From NCBI RefSeq assembly GCF_023703775.1, contig NZ_CP098514.1:2205998-2269997 (forward strand): a stretch of 64,000 nt of DNA, written 5' to 3'. The position numbers and the translations under genes were made by a program. The notes under the pieces are model-generated. The model was not told the origin of the DNA, made no database searches, and worked only from the letters and a program-made list of their open reading frames with translations. This DNA is from Haloplanus sp. GDY1 (GTDB lineage Archaea > Halobacteriota > Halobacteria > Halobacteriales > Haloferacaceae). Below, in pieces: positions 9,134 through 62,671 of the stretch (position 1 is the stretch's first letter; every line of letters begins with the position of its first letter).

Positions 9134-9487
9134 TCACCGCGGGTCGCTCTCCCACCGGTAGTCACACGCCCCGCAGTCGGCGTACTCGGTGTCGCGACGC
9201 GTCTCGGGGTAGAACGCGGCGTCGTCGACGCGCGCGCCGCAGTCCGGACAGACCGCGTGGTCGGGGACGAGCGTGCCCTTGAACACCGTCCCGCAGTCCG
9301 GGCACTCGACCCCGTGGTCGGCGCCGACGCCCTCGACGGTCGCGCCACACTCCGTGCAGGTGTAGCGGCGGGGCGGCCCGTCGCCGCCGTACTCGGCGCC
9401 CGGATCGGTCCAGTCGAGGCCGGCGTCGTCCCCCGCGTCCGCGTCGCGGTCCCCCAGTCCGAGCCACCCCAGCACCCGTCCGAGCAT
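9134..9487 (-). CDS. Multi-zinc-ribbon protein
   Basis: A 117-residue protein with an N-terminal amphipathic stretch (MLGRVLGWLGLG), an acidic linker, and then three zinc-knuckle units: YTCTECGATVEG with VECPDCGTVFKG, AVCPDCGARVDD, and YADCGACDYRWE. That gives at least two four-cysteine zinc sites (rubredoxin or zinc-ribbon type). Such proteins are common in haloarchaea and usually bind nucleic acid or protein partners. The role is unknown here. It is divergent from sirC, with 71 bp between the starts. Confidence 0.75.
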   Translation of the reverse strand: MLGRVLGWLGLGDRDADAGDDAGLDWTDPGAEYGGDGPPRRYTCTECGATVEGVGADHGVECPDCGTVFKGTLVPDHAVCPDCGARVDDAAFYPETRRDTEYADCGACDYRWESDPR

Positions 9488-9558
9488 GGCGGCGGCTACG
9501 AACCCGGTGACAAAACCTCTAGGGGACGACTTTTGGCCGCCGGCCGCGATGGGCCACC

Positions 9559-10209
9559 GTGATCCCGCTGGTCCACGACTTCGACGGCGAGGTGGTGCTG
9601 GTGTTCGGCGGCGGCGCCGTCGGCGCCCGGAAGGCCCGACGCTTCGCTCGCGAGGCGCGGGTCGTCGTCCTCAGCCCCGCGTTCGCGGACGCCGACTTCG
9701 GCGGGAGCGAGTTCGTCCGCGCGGCACCCGGTCCCGAGGACGTGCCGGCGTGGCTCGACGCCGCCGACCCCGCGCTGGTCGTCGCCGCGACGGACGACGC
9801 GGCGCTCAACGCCGCCGTCGAGCGTCACGCCCGCGAGGCGGGCGTCCTCGTCAACCGCGCCGACCGGAGCGGCGACCGGGCGCGCGGCAGCGTCGTCGTC
9901 CCCGCCACCGTCGACGACGACCCGGTGCGCGTCGCGGTCACGACGGGGGGCACCAGCCCCGCGGTGAGCCGCCACCTGCGCCGGGAGCTGGCGGGCGTGA
10001 TCGAGGGAGCGGGACTGGTCGCGACGGTCGTCGCGGACCTGCGTGCCGACCTCAAGGATCGCGGCGTCGACCCGGAGCGGCGGCGGGCGGCGATCCGTGC
10101 CGCGGCGGCGGCTCCGTCGGTGTGGTCGGCGGCCGAGGGCGACGGCGACGAGGAGCGCGTCCGCACGGCCGCGCGGCGGGCGGTCGAGGACGCACTCGAC
10201 GGGCCGTGA
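9559..10209 (+). CDS. sirC: Precorrin-2 dehydrogenase (siroheme synthesis)
   Basis: A 216-residue NAD-dependent enzyme oxidising precorrin-2 to sirohydrochlorin. An N-terminal Rossmann fold is seen in VVLVFGGGAVGARKARRF. The CysG/Met8-like core includes VVAATDDAALNAAVERHA, VNRADRSGDRARGSVVVPA and the conserved TTGGTSPAVSRHLRREL. It lacks the methyltransferase half of bacterial CysG, which is supplied here by the separate cobA gene. It is convergent with the ferredoxin end of the - reductase operon. Its place beside cobA and a CbiX-type chelatase supports siroheme rather than cobalamin supply. Confidence 0.9.
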   Translation: MIPLVHDFDGEVVLVFGGGAVGARKARRFAREARVVVLSPAFADADFGGSEFVRAAPGPEDVPAWLDAADPALVVAATDDAALNAAVERHAREAGVLVNRADRSGDRARGSVVVPATVDDDPVRVAVTTGGTSPAVSRHLRRELAGVIEGAGLVATVVADLRADLKDRGVDPERRRAAIRAAAAAPSVWSAAEGDGDEERVRTAARRAVEDALDGP

Positions 10210-10237
10210 CGACCAGTCGACGCTCAGCGTGCCGCCA

Positions 10238-10573
10238 CTACCAGTCGACGCTCAGCGTTCCGTCACCCTCGGGGTCGGGCGCGACCTCCTCGTCGGTGCG
10301 GCGGTCGATCACGTGGATGACGCCCCGTCCCTTCTTGGCCGGGCAGACCTCCGCGGCGCGGACGTTGTGCGAGAGGTCGTCCGCTCCGACGTAGTAGGAC
10401 CGCGGGCGCGCCAGCCCGGTGTCGAGGTCGAGATCCCAGTTGTCCGACACCTCGGCGCACTTCCCGGTGCCGATGCATTTGTTCGCCTCGAAGATGATCT
10501 TGTAGGGCTTCTCGTCGACCGGCGGCGCGTCGGCGTCGCCGACGTCGCTCGGCCGGATGGGGTCCTCGCTCAT
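10238..10573 (-). CDS. Ferredoxin, three-cysteine (3Fe-4S-like) type
   Basis: A 111-residue ferredoxin. The cluster motif is NKCIGTGKCAEV followed by AEVCPAKKG. The second cysteine of the normal C-x2-C-x2-C-xn-CP pattern is replaced by Thr, so three ligands remain. That suggests a 3Fe-4S cluster, or a 4Fe-4S with a labile site. It is the last gene of the reductase operon, 28 bp after the TrpD-like gene, and is a plausible electron donor to the siroheme reductase. The N-terminus is acidic, as in halophilic ferredoxins. Confidence 0.85.
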   Translation of the reverse strand: MSEDPIRPSDVGDADAPPVDEKPYKIIFEANKCIGTGKCAEVSDNWDLDLDTGLARPRSYYVGADDLSHNVRAAEVCPAKKGRGVIHVIDRRTDEEVAPDPEGDGTLSVDW

Positions 10574-10601
10574 GGCGGTCGTTGGTCGCTGAGGGAGATA
10601 C

Positions 10602-11648
10602 TCAGAACCCCCGAAGGTCGTCGAGGACGGCCGCGGCGGACCCGTCGTCGATGGCCGACCGGGCGGCGTCGAGGCCGGCGTCGAGGCTGTCGGCGTCGCC
10701 GCCGGCGTAGATCCGGACGGCGGCGTTCAGCGCGACGGCGTCGTACCAGTGGTCGGTCCTGTCGCCCGCGACCACCTCGCGGGTGAGGCGGGCGCTGTCC
10801 GCGGCGACGTCCTCGACGCCCAAGTCCTCGGTTTCGAAGTCCATGCCGTACTCGGCGGTCTCGATCTCGTAATCCTCGAACTCGCCGTCGGCCGACCAGT
10901 CGGCGACCTTCGTGTAGCCGGGCCGGATGTCGTCGTACCCCTCCATCCCCTGGAACATGATGACGCGATCCAGGTCGTGGAACGTGCTCTCGTCGAACGT
11001 CTCGACCACCTTCTTCGCGAAGGCGAGGTGGTAGAAGGAGCCGAGGTGGACGCTCGCGCCCGCGGGGTTGGCGAGCGTCTCGACGGTGTTGACGAAGGTG
11101 CGCACGCCCATCCGGTCCCGGCGGTCGAACAGGTCGTGGACGGCGGGGTTGAAGGCCGGCTGGTAGTAGAAGCCGAAGCCCACCTCGTCGACCATCGCGG
11201 CGGAATCGCGGGGCGTCAGTTCGGTCGCGACGCCGAGTTCGTCGAGGACGTGCTTGTACGCGTCCTGCTTCTGCGTGGGGACGCGGTCGCCGGAGTGGGC
11301 GACCACGGGCGTCCCCGCGGCGGCGGCGACGACGCCGGCGGCGACGCCGAGGATGGCCGACCGGCCCTTGCCGTCGTAGTTGGCGCCGCAGTCGACCGGG
11401 TCGGCGTCCGGCGTCGCGTACTCGACGCGGTCGCACATCTCGTCGGTGAACGCGGCGAGTTCGGTCGGGGTGTTGTGTTTCCAGCGGTTGGCCAGCCAGA
11501 AGGCGCCGAGCGTCGTCGGGTCGGGGTCGCCGTCGAGGATGCGACGCATCGCCTCGCCCGCCTGCCGGCGGGTCATGTCTTCCGCCGATTTGGTCCCCGA
11601 CCCCACCACCTCGGTCATCAGGCGCTTGAGCGGCCACGACTCAGTCAC
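10602..11648 (-). CDS. Anthranilate phosphoribosyltransferase-like protein (TrpD2 type)
   Basis: A 348-residue member of the nucleoside phosphorylase/TrpD fold. N-terminal helices (RRQAGEAMRRILDGDPDP) are followed by the glycine-rich region (ILGVAAGVVAAAAGTPVVAH) where TrpD would bind PRPP. The usual GTGGD signature is absent; the equivalent position reads CGANYDGKGRS. Genuine TrpD activity is therefore doubtful. The gene overlaps cobA by 8 bp inside a siroheme and nitrite/sulfite reductase operon, far from any trp gene, so a role linked to that pathway is more likely. Confidence 0.8.
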   Translation of the reverse strand: MTESWPLKRLMTEVVGSGTKSAEDMTRRQAGEAMRRILDGDPDPTTLGAFWLANRWKHNTPTELAAFTDEMCDRVEYATPDADPVDCGANYDGKGRSAILGVAAGVVAAAAGTPVVAHSGDRVPTQKQDAYKHVLDELGVATELTPRDSAAMVDEVGFGFYYQPAFNPAVHDLFDRRDRMGVRTFVNTVETLANPAGASVHLGSFYHLAFAKKVVETFDESTFHDLDRVIMFQGMEGYDDIRPGYTKVADWSADGEFEDYEIETAEYGMDFETEDLGVEDVAADSARLTREVVAGDRTDHWYDAVALNAAVRIYAGGDADSLDAGLDAARSAIDDGSAAAVLDDLRGF

Positions 11649-48095: not shown

Positions 48096-48107
48096 TAGTC
48101 CCACCAG
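48096..48107 (+). repeat. attL core (copy of tRNA-Gln 3' end)
   Basis: TAGTCCCACCAG, identical to 62599-62610. Flanking bases differ on both sides, so the shared core is exactly 12 bp. It lies 48 bp before the integrase ATG. Confidence 0.8.
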
Positions 48108-48154: not shown

Positions 48155-49399
48155 ATGGCCGACACCAACGACGTCCAAGAATACGGGCGAAAGCTCCAGA
48201 ACCAACTGGAGAAGCTCGAAGACGCCGATATTCCCGATGACGACCGTGAGACGATCCGACAGTTCGTCGACTACCTCGACGTCCGAACCAGCAACAACCA
48301 GGGAACCATCGTCTCGAACCTGAATCGGCTCCGACTTGCCGCCGAGCGCGGCGGGACGCCCCTCACCGAGGCCGAGGAGAGTGACATCACGGCACTCATG
48401 GGGACGCTGAAGCGTGAGTACGGTCTCAGGGAGGGCACGCTGCGAGAGTACCGAAAGGCCCTCCGGAAGTTCTACAAGTGGCGCGGCGAGGACTGGGGCG
48501 AGGACATCGAAATCGGCCCCTCGCCGAAGCGGTCGGTCGACCCGGACCAGCTCCTCTCGGATGACGAGATCGACGCCATCCTCGACGCCGCCGAGAACCC
48601 CCGTGACAAGGCTGCCGTCGCGCTGCTCGCGGACACGGGGATCCGCATCGGCGCACTCGCGAGCCTCCGCGTGAAGGATGTCGACCTCTCCGCACAGCCC
48701 GCCGAACTGCACATCAACGAGGACGCCAACGTGAAGGGGGCGAGTGGCAAGACGTTGATGACTTGGAGCCGTGGGTACGTCGCGAACTACCTCGAGGTCC
48801 ATCCCCGTCGCGACGATCCCGACGCCGCCCTCATCCACAAGAACGCCGGTCACCACACCGCCGGCGAGGACGATGGTGCGCTCACCTACCAGTACCTCAG
48901 CCGTCGGATCAAGGAGGTCGGCGAGCGTGCTGGAATCGACGCCGGGCGACTGAACGCCCACAACTTCCGAAAGAGCGCCATCACGCGCTGGATCCGGGAA
49001 GGCCAGCCCGAACAGTGGATCAAAAACCGGGCGTTCTGGGTGGACGACAGCCGGCAGTTCGAGACGTATTCGGGCGTCACCGACGACAACGTGATCACCG
49101 ACATCGCCGACCACTACGGGATCGACGTCGGCGAGCGCGAGACGGCGCGCCCGAACCTGGAAAACTGCCCGCAGTGCGGGTCGCCACTTCGGGACACGGC
49201 CCGTTTCTGCCCCGGGTGTGGTGCGCCGCTCACCCAAGCCGCGGGCGAGGAGAAGCAGTCGGTCGAAGACGCGACCTTTGACTCCGTCGCCGCGGCCGAC
49301 GGTCAGGAGATCGACTACTTCGCCGAGTTCCGCCGCCGGTTCAACGAGGATCCGGCCTTTCGGGAACGCGTCGCCGGCGATCATGACGAGTCCCCCTGA
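48155..49399 (+). CDS. Tyrosine recombinase (integrase) with C-terminal zinc ribbon
   Basis: A 414-residue site-specific recombinase. Residues about 10-110 are a SAM-like core-binding domain. The catalytic domain shows R164 (LADTGIRIGALASLRV), a Lys in the beta hairpin (about K194-K199), H269-x2-R272 (NAHNFRKSAI) and the nucleophile Y305 (QFETYSGV). Residues 338-355 form a zinc ribbon, NCPQCG then FCPGCG, an addition seen in haloarchaeal phage-type integrases. The ATG at 48155 directly follows the inverted repeat. It lies next to attL and should catalyse integration at tRNA-Gln. Confidence 0.94.
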   Translation: MADTNDVQEYGRKLQNQLEKLEDADIPDDDRETIRQFVDYLDVRTSNNQGTIVSNLNRLRLAAERGGTPLTEAEESDITALMGTLKREYGLREGTLREYRKALRKFYKWRGEDWGEDIEIGPSPKRSVDPDQLLSDDEIDAILDAAENPRDKAAVALLADTGIRIGALASLRVKDVDLSAQPAELHINEDANVKGASGKTLMTWSRGYVANYLEVHPRRDDPDAALIHKNAGHHTAGEDDGALTYQYLSRRIKEVGERAGIDAGRLNAHNFRKSAITRWIREGQPEQWIKNRAFWVDDSRQFETYSGVTDDNVITDIADHYGIDVGERETARPNLENCPQCGSPLRDTARFCPGCGAPLTQAAGEEKQSVEDATFDSVAAADGQEIDYFAEFRRRFNEDPAFRERVAGDHDESP

Positions 49400-50713: not shown

Positions 50714-50824
50714 TCACTCCCCGCCGGCGCTCCGGAGCACGGCGCGACAGACATCACCGACGGGGTCGCCCTCCTCGTAGCGGTCGGCGAGCCGGCGGAA
50801 GACGTCGAGTTCGTCGTCGGTCAT
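50714..50824 (-). CDS. 36-residue element micro-protein
   Basis: It reads MTDDELDVFRRLADRYEEGD and PVGDVCRAVLRSAGGE. The ATG overlaps the TGA of the upstream helix-turn-helix-like gene, so the two are coupled. One cysteine, one main helix. Function unknown. Confidence 0.5.
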   Translation of the reverse strand: MTDDELDVFRRLADRYEEGDPVGDVCRAVLRSAGGE

Positions 50825-51063
50825 CGGCCGTCCTCCTCGTCGACGTCGTCGCACACCACCTCGCGGAGTTCGTCAGCGAGTTCACCGTGCTTTTCGAGAG
50901 CTTCGAGGTCTCCGTCCAGCCGCTTGAACCGAGCACGAACCCGGCTGATGGTTTGGTATCGGTAACTGTCGGAGACGTCGGCTTCGCCAGCGACAATCTC
51001 TCGTTCTCGATCAGTTAGCAGCGCCCGACGGTCGGCCATACAGGCCGATTCGGCTGTTGCCAT
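50821..51063 (-). CDS. Small helix-turn-helix-like element protein
   Basis: An 80-residue protein; an internal ATG at 51039 (MADRRALLTDREREIVAGEA) may be the real start. It has the same TDRER module as the 50080 gene, followed by VSDSYRYQTISRVRARFKRL, which reads like a DNA-binding helix pair as in haloarchaeal regulators. It ends in an acidic tail. It faces the structured-leader promoter region and may regulate that operon. Confidence 0.65.
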   Translation of the reverse strand: MATAESACMADRRALLTDREREIVAGEADVSDSYRYQTISRVRARFKRLDGDLEALEKHGELADELREVVCDDVDEEDGR

Positions 51064-51257: not shown

Positions 51258-51947
51258 ATGTCAACCGACGCTTTCGGGTCACTTGAACGTGACCCCACGA
51301 CCGATCGTACCGACTTGGAGAAGCGCACGCGCCGCGCGCTCGAACAGTACCTGACCGTCCTCGACGACGTCGACGAGGCCGCCGGCGCCGACGACCTGTA
51401 CGTCGTCGTTTCTGAGAGCGGCTCGCAGTACTGCGTCGACGCTCGCGGCGGCAGTTGCACCTGTCCCGACGCGGAGCACCGCGACCCCGACGGCGGCTGT
51501 AAGCACGTCCGTCGCGTGGCCTTCGCGACCGGCGCCGACGCGATCCCGGCGGCGGCCGACCCCGACGCGGTCGACGATCAGCTGGGCGCCCACGTCGACG
51601 GCCCCGTTCGGTGGGCGTGCGAGCACGGCCGGGGATTCTGTGCCGAGAGCGCCGCCGCTCGCGATGACGCTGTCCGGTGCTCGGACTGCGAGATCGAGGC
51701 CGCCGCGACGCCCACCGAGCGTGTCGTCCCCGACGGCGGGATCGTCGAGGCCGGCGACGAGGGTGAGCTCCTCGACGAGGATGACGACGTCGTCGACCTG
51801 AGCGAGGTCACGGGCGAGGCCGACCCCGACCGCCCCGACGACTGCGACTGCGGCGCGTGGAACGGGGGGCTTGGCCTGCCATGCTGGCCCTGCTACCGCG
51901 AGGGCTTCGAGACGCCGGCGAGCGCCGGCGAGGAGGAGGAGGCATGA
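51258..51947 (+). CDS. SWIM zinc-finger protein
   Basis: A 229-residue protein. The SWIM motif C-x-C-xn-C-x-H is seen in GGSCTCPDAEHRDPDGGCKH after LYVVVSESGSQYCVDARG. A second zinc region follows (WACEHGRGFCAES, VRCSDCEIEAA), and the tail contains DCDCGAWNGGLGLPCWPCY. SWIM domains bind DNA or protein and are common in haloarchaeal viruses and plasmids. It is first in a chain of eight genes with 4-8 bp overlaps, behind the structured leader. Confidence 0.88.
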   Translation: MSTDAFGSLERDPTTDRTDLEKRTRRALEQYLTVLDDVDEAAGADDLYVVVSESGSQYCVDARGGSCTCPDAEHRDPDGGCKHVRRVAFATGADAIPAAADPDAVDDQLGAHVDGPVRWACEHGRGFCAESAAARDDAVRCSDCEIEAAATPTERVVPDGGIVEAGDEGELLDEDDDVVDLSEVTGEADPDRPDDCDCGAWNGGLGLPCWPCYREGFETPASAGEEEEA

Positions 51948-52114
51948 TGGCCGCCGCCAACGAGCGAACCTGCCGGCGCTGCGGCGATGCCGTCGGCATC
52001 CCGCACTACCTCGAAGTCGAACAGCCGGACGGGAGTATGTTCGTTGCCGACCTTTGCGCGGCCGACGCCCGGCGCGTGGCCGATCTCATCGACTCGACGG
52101 AGGACAGCCGATGA
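51944..52114 (+). CDS. Small zinc-knuckle protein
   Basis: A 56-residue protein MMAAANERTCRRCGDAVGIP, with CRRC at the start and one further Cys (ADLCAADARRVADLI). Likely binds one zinc. The start overlaps the previous stop (ATGA). Function unknown. Confidence 0.7.
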   Translation: MMAAANERTCRRCGDAVGIPHYLEVEQPDGSMFVADLCAADARRVADLIDSTEDSR

Positions 52115-52356
52115 CGCGCCCGACCACGGTCGAGGCCGTCGACACGATGGTCAGAATCACCGACGGCCGCGTGTCGATGACCGCGTCGAGCGAGACGACG
52201 GCGCGCGTCCACATTCCCGACCGCCAGCCACTCGCCGCCATCGAGACCCACGCCACGATCCGCGTCGACGGCCCGGACTACAAGGCCACGCTCGAACTCG
52301 ACGCCGACGCGGCCGCAGCGCTGCATGCGGCCCTGGAGGAGGCGATCAACCGATGA
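52111..52356 (+). CDS. Small beta-rich element protein
   Basis: An 81-residue protein (MTRPTTVEAVDTMVRITDGR). Strands VRITDGRVSMTASSETTARV and ETHATIRVDGPDYKATLELD are followed by a helix DADAAAALHAALEEAIN. No cysteines. Coupled by 4-bp overlaps on both sides. Function unknown. Confidence 0.65.
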   Translation: MTRPTTVEAVDTMVRITDGRVSMTASSETTARVHIPDRQPLAAIETHATIRVDGPDYKATLELDADAAAALHAALEEAINR

Positions 52357-52784
52357 CGTCCCGTCGCGACGTACTCGAGGGGGTCCTCGGCGCCATGGCC
52401 CTAGCGCCGGCGGCGGCCGGCGGCGCACCTGCGACCGACGCCGAGGCGGGGATCCCGGCGCCGTTCGACGCCGTCCCGGCGCTCGAGGATCCGCCGGAGC
52501 GGCTCCGCGGCATCGCCGGTGTCGTGTTCCCGCCCGCGGCTGTTCCCGACGAGGGTCCGATCCCCGACGTGCATCACACCCACACTGAGGCGGTCGAGGT
52601 CACGGTGCCGCCGTGGGCCTTCGAGGCGGTGCGGTGGCGGCTCGATCACGCCGATCCAGACAAGATCGACCGCTGGTACGTTGAGGAGCTCCTCGTCGAG
52701 TACGCCCACGCCGACGAACAGTTCCGCACGCCCGACGGTCGCGACGCCGTCGACGTCCTCCTGGAGGCCGTCAACGATGGGTGA
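52353..52784 (+). CDS. Element protein with a twin-arginine-like N-terminus
   Basis: A 143-residue protein starting MTSRRDVLEGVLGAMALAPA. SRRDVL plus a hydrophobic stretch resembles a Tat signal, as is usual for secreted haloarchaeal proteins, so export is possible. The rest is acidic and beta/alpha (VEVTVPPWAFEAVRWRLDH, WYVEELLVEYAHADEQF). No lipobox cysteine. It overlaps its neighbours by 4 and 8 bp. Function unknown. Confidence 0.65.
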   Translation: MTSRRDVLEGVLGAMALAPAAAGGAPATDAEAGIPAPFDAVPALEDPPERLRGIAGVVFPPAAVPDEGPIPDVHHTHTEAVEVTVPPWAFEAVRWRLDHADPDKIDRWYVEELLVEYAHADEQFRTPDGRDAVDVLLEAVNDG

Positions 52785-52998
52785 CCTCACGGCGCCGGAC
52801 GAGGGCGCGGCCTCGTCGTCCCGGGCGATTGCTGACGAGCTGTCCGAGGCCCTCGTCGCGTTCGATCACGTCGACTACAACGCGGTCACCGTCGACGAAC
52901 TCCGGGAGCTGCTCGACGCTCGCGACACAGTTGAGGAGCTATGTCTTCGCTACCGGCGTCAGCAACCCCAGCGTGGCAGCCAGGAGGCCGAGTCGTGA
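52777..52998 (+). CDS. Small helical element protein
   Basis: A 73-residue acidic protein (SSSRAIADELSEALVAFDHV, VDELRELLDARDTVEELCLR) that is mostly helical, with one cysteine. Overlaps the previous gene by 8 bp and the next by 4 bp (GTGA). Function unknown. Confidence 0.6.
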   Translation: MGDLTAPDEGAASSSRAIADELSEALVAFDHVDYNAVTVDELRELLDARDTVEELCLRYRRQQPQRGSQEAES

Positions 52999-53126
52999 CG
53001 ACCCGCACCCGCACCGAACGCGGCGAGTGGACCCTCGCCGAAGGGCTGGTCTCGGGGATCCCGCGGGCACGGGTGGCACTGGCCGGGGTGAAGGCGAATC
53101 ACGAACGCGCGGAGGGTATCCGATGA
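52995..53126 (+). CDS. Small element protein, 43 residues
   Basis: GTG start; reads MTTRTRTERGEWTLAEGLVS and GIPRARVALAGVKANHERAE. An upstream ATG at 52941 would add 18 residues but would overlap the previous gene by 58 bp, so the GTG is preferred. Basic and short. Function unknown. Confidence 0.5.
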   Translation: MTTRTRTERGEWTLAEGLVSGIPRARVALAGVKANHERAEGIR

Positions 53127-53368
53127 GCGCCGCTGCGGACGTCGACCCCGCGCGCTTCGAGGGCGATCCGCCGGCGGTCGTGCTCACCTTCGGCGGCCAC
53201 GGCGGTCGGGTCTACCACCGCGTTCGCGAGACACTCGAGGGCGAACACGTGACGGCGTGCGGCCAGCAGGGGCGCAATCCCTACCTGAAGGAGCGCGCGG
53301 TGATCGAGAGCCACTACACGCCGTGTCGGCGGTGCTTTCCCGACGGCCTGGAGGACGCCGATGAGTAG
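53123..53368 (+). CDS. Small zinc-binding element protein with a CRRC tail
   Basis: An 81-residue protein. The body is beta-rich (AVVLTFGGHGGRVYHRVRET, EHVTACGQQGRNPYLKERA). The C-terminus is IESHYTPCRRCFPDG, giving with ACGQ a likely Cys3/His zinc site. It overlaps the RuvC-like gene by 8 bp. Its C-terminal 19 codons recur as a diverged copy directly after that gene. Small proteins of this kind are common in haloarchaeal proviruses. Confidence 0.65.
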   Translation: MSAAADVDPARFEGDPPAVVLTFGGHGGRVYHRVRETLEGEHVTACGQQGRNPYLKERAVIESHYTPCRRCFPDGLEDADE

Positions 53369-53996
53369 CCGCCTGCGCGCCGAGGCGACTGCGTCCGCGC
53401 TCCCGCCGGCGACGACACCCATCGGCGTCGACGTCGGGGAAGATCCGCTGTATGCCGTCGCGACGCCCGACACGGCGCCGAATGACGCTCGGACGGTCAG
53501 CGGCGACGGACTCGGGAGCACCGCCGATGCGCTCGTCGAGACGATCCGCGTGCTCCGATCCGGCGCGCCCGTCGGCGACGCCGTCGAGGCGGCGGTCGTC
53601 GCGAGCTACTGGCGGGAGCTCCGGAGCATGGTCGACGGGGCGATCCCGGCCGTCCTTGAGTACGCCCACGGCCACACCGCGCCGGTGCTCGTCCTGGAGG
53701 ACCTCGGCCACGACCCACCGACGCTGTGGGAGCTTCGCGACGCCGAGCGGTCGGCCTGGAGCCCGTGGGTCGTGACGCTCGTCCAAGCCCGTCTCGTCGA
53801 CGCCGCGACCGCGGCCGGCATTCCGATCCTGTGGACGCCGCCGAACGGAACGACACGGAAGTGTCACGCCTGCGGTGAGCGTGGCGAACTTCCCGAGTTC
53901 GGCACCGTGTTCCGGTGCACAACGGCGTCATGCTCGGTGGACGTCGTCGACCGTGACTGCGGCGCCGCGGTGTCGATCGCGAAGCGGGGGGTGTGA
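53361..53996 (+). CDS. Minimal RuvC-like putative nuclease related to TnpB C-terminal half
   Basis: A 211-residue protein. RuvC-I is IGVDVGEDPLYAV with D24, RuvC-II is VLVLEDLG with E113, and RuvC-III is RDCGAAVSIAKRG with D199, aligning with the TnpB D-x-N-A-A pattern. A four-Cys zinc ribbon (KCHACGERG, RCTTASCSVD; C168, C171, C186, C191) interrupts as in TnpB/Cas12. The N-terminal REC/WED-like half of TnpB (about 170-200 residues) is absent, yet all three acidic residues are kept. It ends an eight-gene operon, so it looks like a domesticated element nuclease rather than a transposon passenger. Confidence 0.8.
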   Translation: MSSRLRAEATASALPPATTPIGVDVGEDPLYAVATPDTAPNDARTVSGDGLGSTADALVETIRVLRSGAPVGDAVEAAVVASYWRELRSMVDGAIPAVLEYAHGHTAPVLVLEDLGHDPPTLWELRDAERSAWSPWVVTLVQARLVDAATAAGIPILWTPPNGTTRKCHACGERGELPEFGTVFRCTTASCSVDVVDRDCGAAVSIAKRGV

Positions 53997-54052
53997 TCGA
54001 GACCCACTGCGAACCCAGCCGGCGCTGCCTTCCCGACAGCGTCGGCGAGTAA
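53993..54052 (+). pseudogene. 3' remnant of a 53123-type zinc-protein gene
   Basis: Nineteen codons ending in TAA, reading VIETHCEPSRRCLPDSVGE. They match the C-terminus of the 53123-53368 protein (VIESHYTPCRRCFPDG) at 10 of 16 positions. There is no upstream part in this frame. It overlaps the stop of the RuvC-like gene, so it is a leftover of a duplication or insertion. Confidence 0.5.
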
Positions 54053-62535: not shown

Positions 62536-62598
62536 CGAGTGGAGAATCGGCCGCAGAGACGCCGCGCTCAGGCGTTTGGATTATGTAAGAATTTTTAG

Positions 62599-62610
62599 TA
62601 GTCCCACCAG
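62599..62610 (+). repeat. attR core inside the tRNA-Gln 3' end
   Basis: TAGTCCCACCAG on +, the reverse complement of the last 12 nt of the tRNA (CTGGTGGGACTA). Identical to 48096-48107. Confidence 0.8.
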
Positions 62611-62671
62611 GATTCGAACCTGGGTCGAAGCCCCCAGAAGGCTTCAGGATTGGCCGCTACCCCATGGGACT
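62599..62671 (-). tRNA. tRNA-Gln (anticodon CTG)
   Basis: 73 nt. Acceptor AGTCCCA pairs perfectly with TGGGACT, discriminator A. The anticodon stem AAGCC/GGCTT closes loop TTCTGGG, whose middle is CTG. The T arm is CCAGG-TTCGAAT-CCTGG. CCA is not encoded. It reads CAG codons. Integration of the element at its 3' end left the gene complete. Confidence 0.92.

Follow-up and report, generated by a model that had tools for sequence, protein, structure and literature searches.

A stand-alone RuvC/zinc-ribbon half of TnpB forms a conserved haloarchaeal family, one clade of which sits in HRAMP loci

Can the cutting half of TnpB persist as a protein of its own once the half that binds the guide RNA is gone? 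Normally, binding of guide and target in the N-terminal half, where the WED and REC domains hold the omega RNA scaffold, gates the RuvC site of TnpB and Cas12. To our knowledge, the TnpB descendants described so far are of two kinds: Cas12 and Fanzor retain both halves, whereas TldR retains guide binding and no longer cuts. The question is raised by a gene in a 64,000-nt stretch of Haloplanus sp. GDY1 DNA (NZ_CP098514.1, positions 2,205,998 to 2,269,997; hereafter the window), which is carried by an element inserted in a tRNA-Gln gene and which an initial annotation had described as the nuclease half of TnpB alone. We confirm that this gene (53361–53996) encodes the RuvC and zinc-ribbon (TNB) half of TnpB without the guide-binding half, and we find that such short forms are a distinct conserved haloarchaeal family and not decayed relics. 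On balance, we favour the reading that the protein is a TnpB-derived, catalytically intact RuvC/TNB domain that has lost WED and REC and is now a separate nuclease subunit recruited by a partner. The fold, the conservation of triad and ribbon, the purifying selection, the distinctness of the haloarchaeal family and the linkage of its sister clade to HRAMP (haloarchaeal RAMP) genes are computed directly.

The 211-residue RuvC/zinc-ribbon frame had been placed exactly, and its product matches Cas12f1-like_TNB (PF07282) with an E-value of 1.9e-6, which exceeds the Pfam cut-off, while the NCBIfam Cas12f2 match is far under its own (24 vs 450 bits). When aligned to solved Cas12f, D24 (IGVDVG), E113 (VLVLEDL) and D199 (DRDCGAA) are the RuvC-I, -II and -III acidic residues, as proposed; in the family-profile alignment they pair with GVDMGE, MEDL and ADFNA of OsCas12f. 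The ribbon lies between RuvC-II and RuvC-III, with Cys168, Cys171, Cys186 and Cys191 as zinc ligands. An AlphaFold model built from a 40-row alignment (pLDDT 88, pTM 0.82) bears out the RNase H fold, since the best PDB matches in a structure search are Cas12f, TnpB, TranC and Fanzor (top E 1.5e-8). Also, the family profile matches Cas12f and TnpB chains of the PDB with E-values down to 1e-13, and these matches are confined to the C-terminal half of the chains.

The RNA-binding N-terminal half is indeed missing. First, the stop-to-stop frame opens just 19 codons 5' of the ATG, which leaves no room for a WED/REC half. Second, a hidden Markov model built from 25 haloarchaeal TnpB N-halves of about 195 aa each, which recovers its own parents, had no match in window 46–64 kb or in the searched family loci, so that a split TnpB with its N-half encoded nearby is ruled out. 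The RuvC/TNB surface could by itself still use a compact guide RNA, given that TNB touches nucleic acid in TnpB. We consider this very unlikely, as the domains holding the omega RNA are missing and a search for known RNA families gave no Rfam match in the element.

In comparison to TnpB of IS200/IS605 elements (haloarchaeal ISH12-type, ISDra2 TnpB), the window protein has the same triad, TNB ribbon and C-terminal fold, with about 28–35% identity to haloarchaeal TnpB across the C-half. However, it is without about 195 N-terminal residues (WED/REC), belongs to a separate clade and is encoded inside the operon of a tRNA-Gln element. Cas12f and type V effectors are its top structural and profile matches, but they keep the N-half and a nearby CRISPR array, whereas the window protein has no N-half and we found no CRISPR-like direct-repeat array in window 46.5–64 kb. 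The statement that domesticated TnpBs usually lose catalysis is right for TldR and wrong for Cas12, another case of TnpB domestication. Like the window protein, TldR is a TnpB derivative found outside transposons (partly in prophages); it has lost the RuvC site and kept guide binding, while the family studied here did the reverse, as the initial annotation had suspected, with the catalytic residues kept throughout the family and the guide-binding half lost. TldRs are TnpB-like nuclease-dead repressors (PMC13418256; Wiegand 2024 cited there).

A search of 392 Halobacteriales genomes with a profile of six short members yielded 49 short relatives from 32 genomes, each scoring about 180 bits or more; under them lies a gap, the next matches scoring at most 162 bits, where full-length TnpB starts. 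No family member above E 1e-30 was found outside Halobacteriales in a phylum sample of 393 genomes. Viral and genome contigs scanned with degenerate peptides of the single window protein gave no match, and an alignment-based query matched one distant viral contig. Three short viral fold matches in BFVD (G8ECD7, 238 aa; UPI000018F643, 246 aa; A0A1S5V2D3, 257 aa) may be other RuvC-only forms or mere fragments. In three public plasmid regions, the annotation of the RuvC gene reads just “zinc ribbon domain-containing protein”, and the genes directly beside it are labelled “hypothetical protein”.

By genomic context, the family comprises group A1 in element operons (window, L031, L032, L109, L111 and L117, with L116 as a divergent relative lacking the element-operon context), group A2 (L033, L075–077, L081, L082, L087, L088, L090, L094, L100 and L113) and group B (31 rows in the tree). 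The triad is kept in 47/47, 49/49 and 49/49 of the rows covering the respective region, and the four Cys ligands throughout the 49 rows except for C186Y in L031. Between the RuvC genes of the window and of L031, which come from the same genome, the nonsynonymous (dN) and synonymous (dS) rates are 0.069 and 0.384 (dN/dS 0.18); the ratio is 0.21–0.27 for other group-A pairs, and 0.31 and 0.58 for group B pairs. With 49 relatives, a conserved triad and a dN/dS of 0.18, the family is not due to chance. These data also bear on a non-catalytic role, in which fold and acidic residues would be kept in a nucleic-acid-binding or regulatory zinc protein. Such a role would fit the lost zinc ligand of L031 and the very small operon neighbours, but the three acidic residues are fully conserved over very divergent members and the gene is under purifying selection; we regard this role as quite unlikely.

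In a careful tree, which omits the very divergent L116 and L117, a branch with support 100/99.6 divides the short forms from TnpB. Because the TnpBs sampled in this tree are haloarchaeal and profile-near only, some short forms may have arisen separately, from a TnpB outside this sample. Element-borne and HRAMP-linked forms cluster together (97/90.7), and the HRAMP clade is nested within the element-borne lineage, which suggests a transfer of the RuvC gene from elements to HRAMP loci; an approximately unbiased test neither establishes nor rejects a clade uniting every element-borne member (p-AU 0.24). Truncated TnpBs such as L118–L121 rank just under the short family in score, and the window gene could likewise be the decaying C-terminal remnant of a TnpB of the IS605 type. 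Yet L118–L121 group with TnpB, whereas the short forms make up a clade apart from it. Their contexts are conserved, they have start codons of their own, and their dN/dS values lie well under 1. Tree, selection and contexts thus rule out this reading, to which we give next to no credence.

What could then recruit the protein? The A2 loci are HRAMP loci, in which overlapping genes follow the order cluster 3, RuvC, Cas7-like, cluster 17 and Cmr3-like, often with a zinc-ribbon cluster 6 protein upstream. In L076, for instance, the RuvC gene (9484–10146) overlaps the Cas7-like gene (10133–10996). Some A2 loci are partly broken, and in L094 the RAMP genes are missing. For the Cas7-like protein, there is a match to Csm3 (1.9e-4) and a weak one, under the cut-off, to the RAMP superfamily (0.008); its model (pLDDT 74) resembles Cas7 subunits of types VII and III (E 6e-7), in a structure search with 114 matches at E≤0.001. 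Of the other two RAMP genes, the last matches Cmr3 (1.3e-7), and the middle one (cluster 17), with no family or PDB match, is a candidate Cas5-like protein by position only. Loci homologous to A2 HRAMP occur in 94 of the 392 genomes. The distant ones carry no RuvC and instead an HNH protein (PF01844, 4e-8) or an RNase-H-like protein, so that RuvC is one of several alternative nucleases, carried by a minority of HRAMP loci. Such nucleases agree with HRAMP descriptions in the portion of PMC8730458 used here. In the portions drawn from PMC8730458 and PMC12669027, the usual HRAMP nucleases are named as HNH and PD-(D/E)xK and RuvC goes unmentioned; the former review, citing Makarova 2019, there refers to further nucleases and leaves them unnamed in the text.

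Under the reading that we favour, a recruited nuclease subunit, the RuvC/TNB protein would use the metal-dependent chemistry of RuvC to cut DNA, its probable substrate being single strands laid open in an R-loop or during replication of the element. A partner would bring the protein to the target in place of an omega RNA of its own. In HRAMP loci, this partner would likely be a Cas7/Cas5-like guide-holding complex. For the window element, it would be element-encoded or possibly the host HRAMP in trans, the latter since the window genome has an HRAMP locus on another contig (L182, C2:24702–25544, in G000:C2:20500–29500) with no RuvC gene alongside. The element would use the protein as an accessory weapon or a DNA-processing enzyme. 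We also put forward, tentatively, the more specific possibility of a split RNA-guided nuclease, in which Cas7/Cas5-like RAMP proteins hold the guide, the RuvC protein of the overlapping gene cuts, and element copies could plug into the host HRAMP in trans.

Several observations weigh against a recruited nuclease subunit. First, most HRAMP loci lack RuvC, which is present in about 9 of the places found across the 94 genomes. Second, group B pairs with a coiled-coil protein or adjoins gas-vesicle genes, so a RAMP partnership is not general. Third, the window and L031 form a pair on a long branch, and L031 has lost one Cys ligand. Fourth, the window operon differs from the HRAMP loci of the sister clade in having no RAMP genes. 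Finally, the nuclease activity of the protein is itself a prediction. Without any partner, RuvC/TNB could act alone on single-stranded or branched element DNA during replication or recombination, like a resolvase or a flap nuclease. The triad is intact, neither a TnpB N-half nor a known guide RNA lies nearby, the element has its own Prim-Pol and many RuvC neighbours vary, all of which would suit a guide-free nuclease. However, the RuvC site of TnpB and Cas12 is normally gated by the half that is missing here, and gene overlaps link the closely related sister clade to RAMP proteins that hold guides; we therefore find a guide-free nuclease rather unlikely.

A new partner within the same operon, which the initial annotation had thought possible, finds no support in the small genes of the window operon, as they do not track RuvC across relatives; the best evidence for a partner is the overlap with the Cas7-like gene in the sister clade. 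Of 99 genomes, for instance, 58 hold a SWIM-type first gene and 4 a short RuvC form. The SWIM gene, far commoner than RuvC, is thus ruled out as an obligate partner, and RuvC seems to be an optional cargo gene of such loci.

In group B, the coiled-coil protein (mostly 200–390 aa) lies directly downstream of RuvC in 21 loci (L034, L072–074, L091–093, L095–096 and others) and is a candidate partner there; group B loci often have a small winged-helix gene upstream. Other members (L035, L079, L083–085, L097, L114 and L115) lie on the gvpO side of gas-vesicle genes, usually with MutS further out, and this position is conserved across several genomes (GvpO 6e-28, Gas_vesicle 2e-16, GvpL/F 5e-44). 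In addition, plasmid pHG4 of Haloferax gibbonsii (L153) has RuvC after two small genes that match cluster 6 and cluster 3 in length and order, with no RAMP gene evident; a cluster 6/cluster 3/RuvC module may travel apart from HRAMP.

As first described, the window gene ends an element operon of eight genes (51258–53996), whose stop and start codons overlap. The 14.5-kb element (Table 1) has a relative, L109, with the same layout and a 17-nt tRNA-Cys repeat. In a genome of the same genus (G009), 0.7 kb instead of 14.6 kb separates the left-flank match (up to 202288) from the tRNA match (from 203009), and the element is therefore absent there. The gene does not appear to be part of an IS605-type unit, with no transposase match among the tested RuvC neighbours; ends of insertion sequences were not searched for. 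A 48-nt stretch recurs around the gene (alignment score 41 vs 28 for the best of 200 shuffles), and this sequence arrangement, with gene 7 on one side and the 48-nt copy on the other, suggests that RuvC may have been inserted as a cassette. L031 has no downstream copy of the repeat.

Table 1. Features of the tRNA-Gln element in the window
Feature	Position	Strand	Remark
Left att (attachment site) candidate, TAGTCCCACCAG	48096..48107		repeat of the tRNA 3'-end word, just before the integrase
Tyrosine integrase of the element	48155..49399	+	
Small phrog_26393-family protein	50821..51039	-	divergent from the operon, likely regulator
Operon gene 1, SWIM zinc-finger-like protein, 229 aa	51258..51947	+	phrog_17897
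Operon gene 2, CxxC protein, 56 aa	51944..52114	+	
Operon gene 3, 81 aa	52111..52356	+	cluster 27, common to L031, L109, L111
Operon gene 4, 143 aa	52353..52784	+	weakly Tat-signal-like N-terminus (E 0.84); cluster 54, common to L032
Operon gene 5, 73 aa	52777..52998	+	dN/dS 0.09 vs L031 copy
Operon gene 6, 43 aa	52995..53126	+	GTG start; gene call made in the L031 copy only
Operon gene 7, Cys-containing, 81 aa	53123..53368	+	overlaps start of RuvC gene
48-nt stretch	53300..53347	+	end of gene 7
Stand-alone RuvC/TNB protein, 211 aa	53361..53996	+	ATG start
Triad codons of RuvC/TNB gene	D24 53430-53432, E113 53697-53699, D199 53955-53957	+	
Diverged copy of 48-nt stretch	53993..54040	+	overlaps RuvC stop
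Prim-Pol primase protein, 1186 aa	58914..62474	-	
tRNA-Gln (CTG)	62598..62671	-	integration target
Right att candidate, TAGTCCCACCAG	62599..62610		3' end of the tRNA-Gln gene

The second operon copy of the same genome (RuvC at L031:12032–12682, minus strand; G000:C1, about 37 kb) adjoins another integrase and a gene resembling HsdM of type I restriction. Also, RRxFL starts resembling twin-arginine translocation (Tat) signals are frequent in the small proteins whose genes precede RuvC or HRAMP genes (window gene 4, L076:8706–9173, L124:594–971); they are weak Pfam matches and are odd beside nuclease genes.

In the literature searched, with the founding HRAMP paper (Makarova 2019) and the TnpB survey of Altae-Tran 2023 outside its scope, we found no description of a RuvC-only TnpB family, and any priority on RuvC in HRAMP is provisional. 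A conserved family made of the cutting half only means that the TnpB nuclease is separable from guide binding, and, with about 210 residues, the protein is an intact RuvC module of unusually small size. The HRAMP-linked RuvC would join class 1-type guide handling to a class 2 nuclease, and this makes directly testable how the array-less HRAMP attacks its targets.
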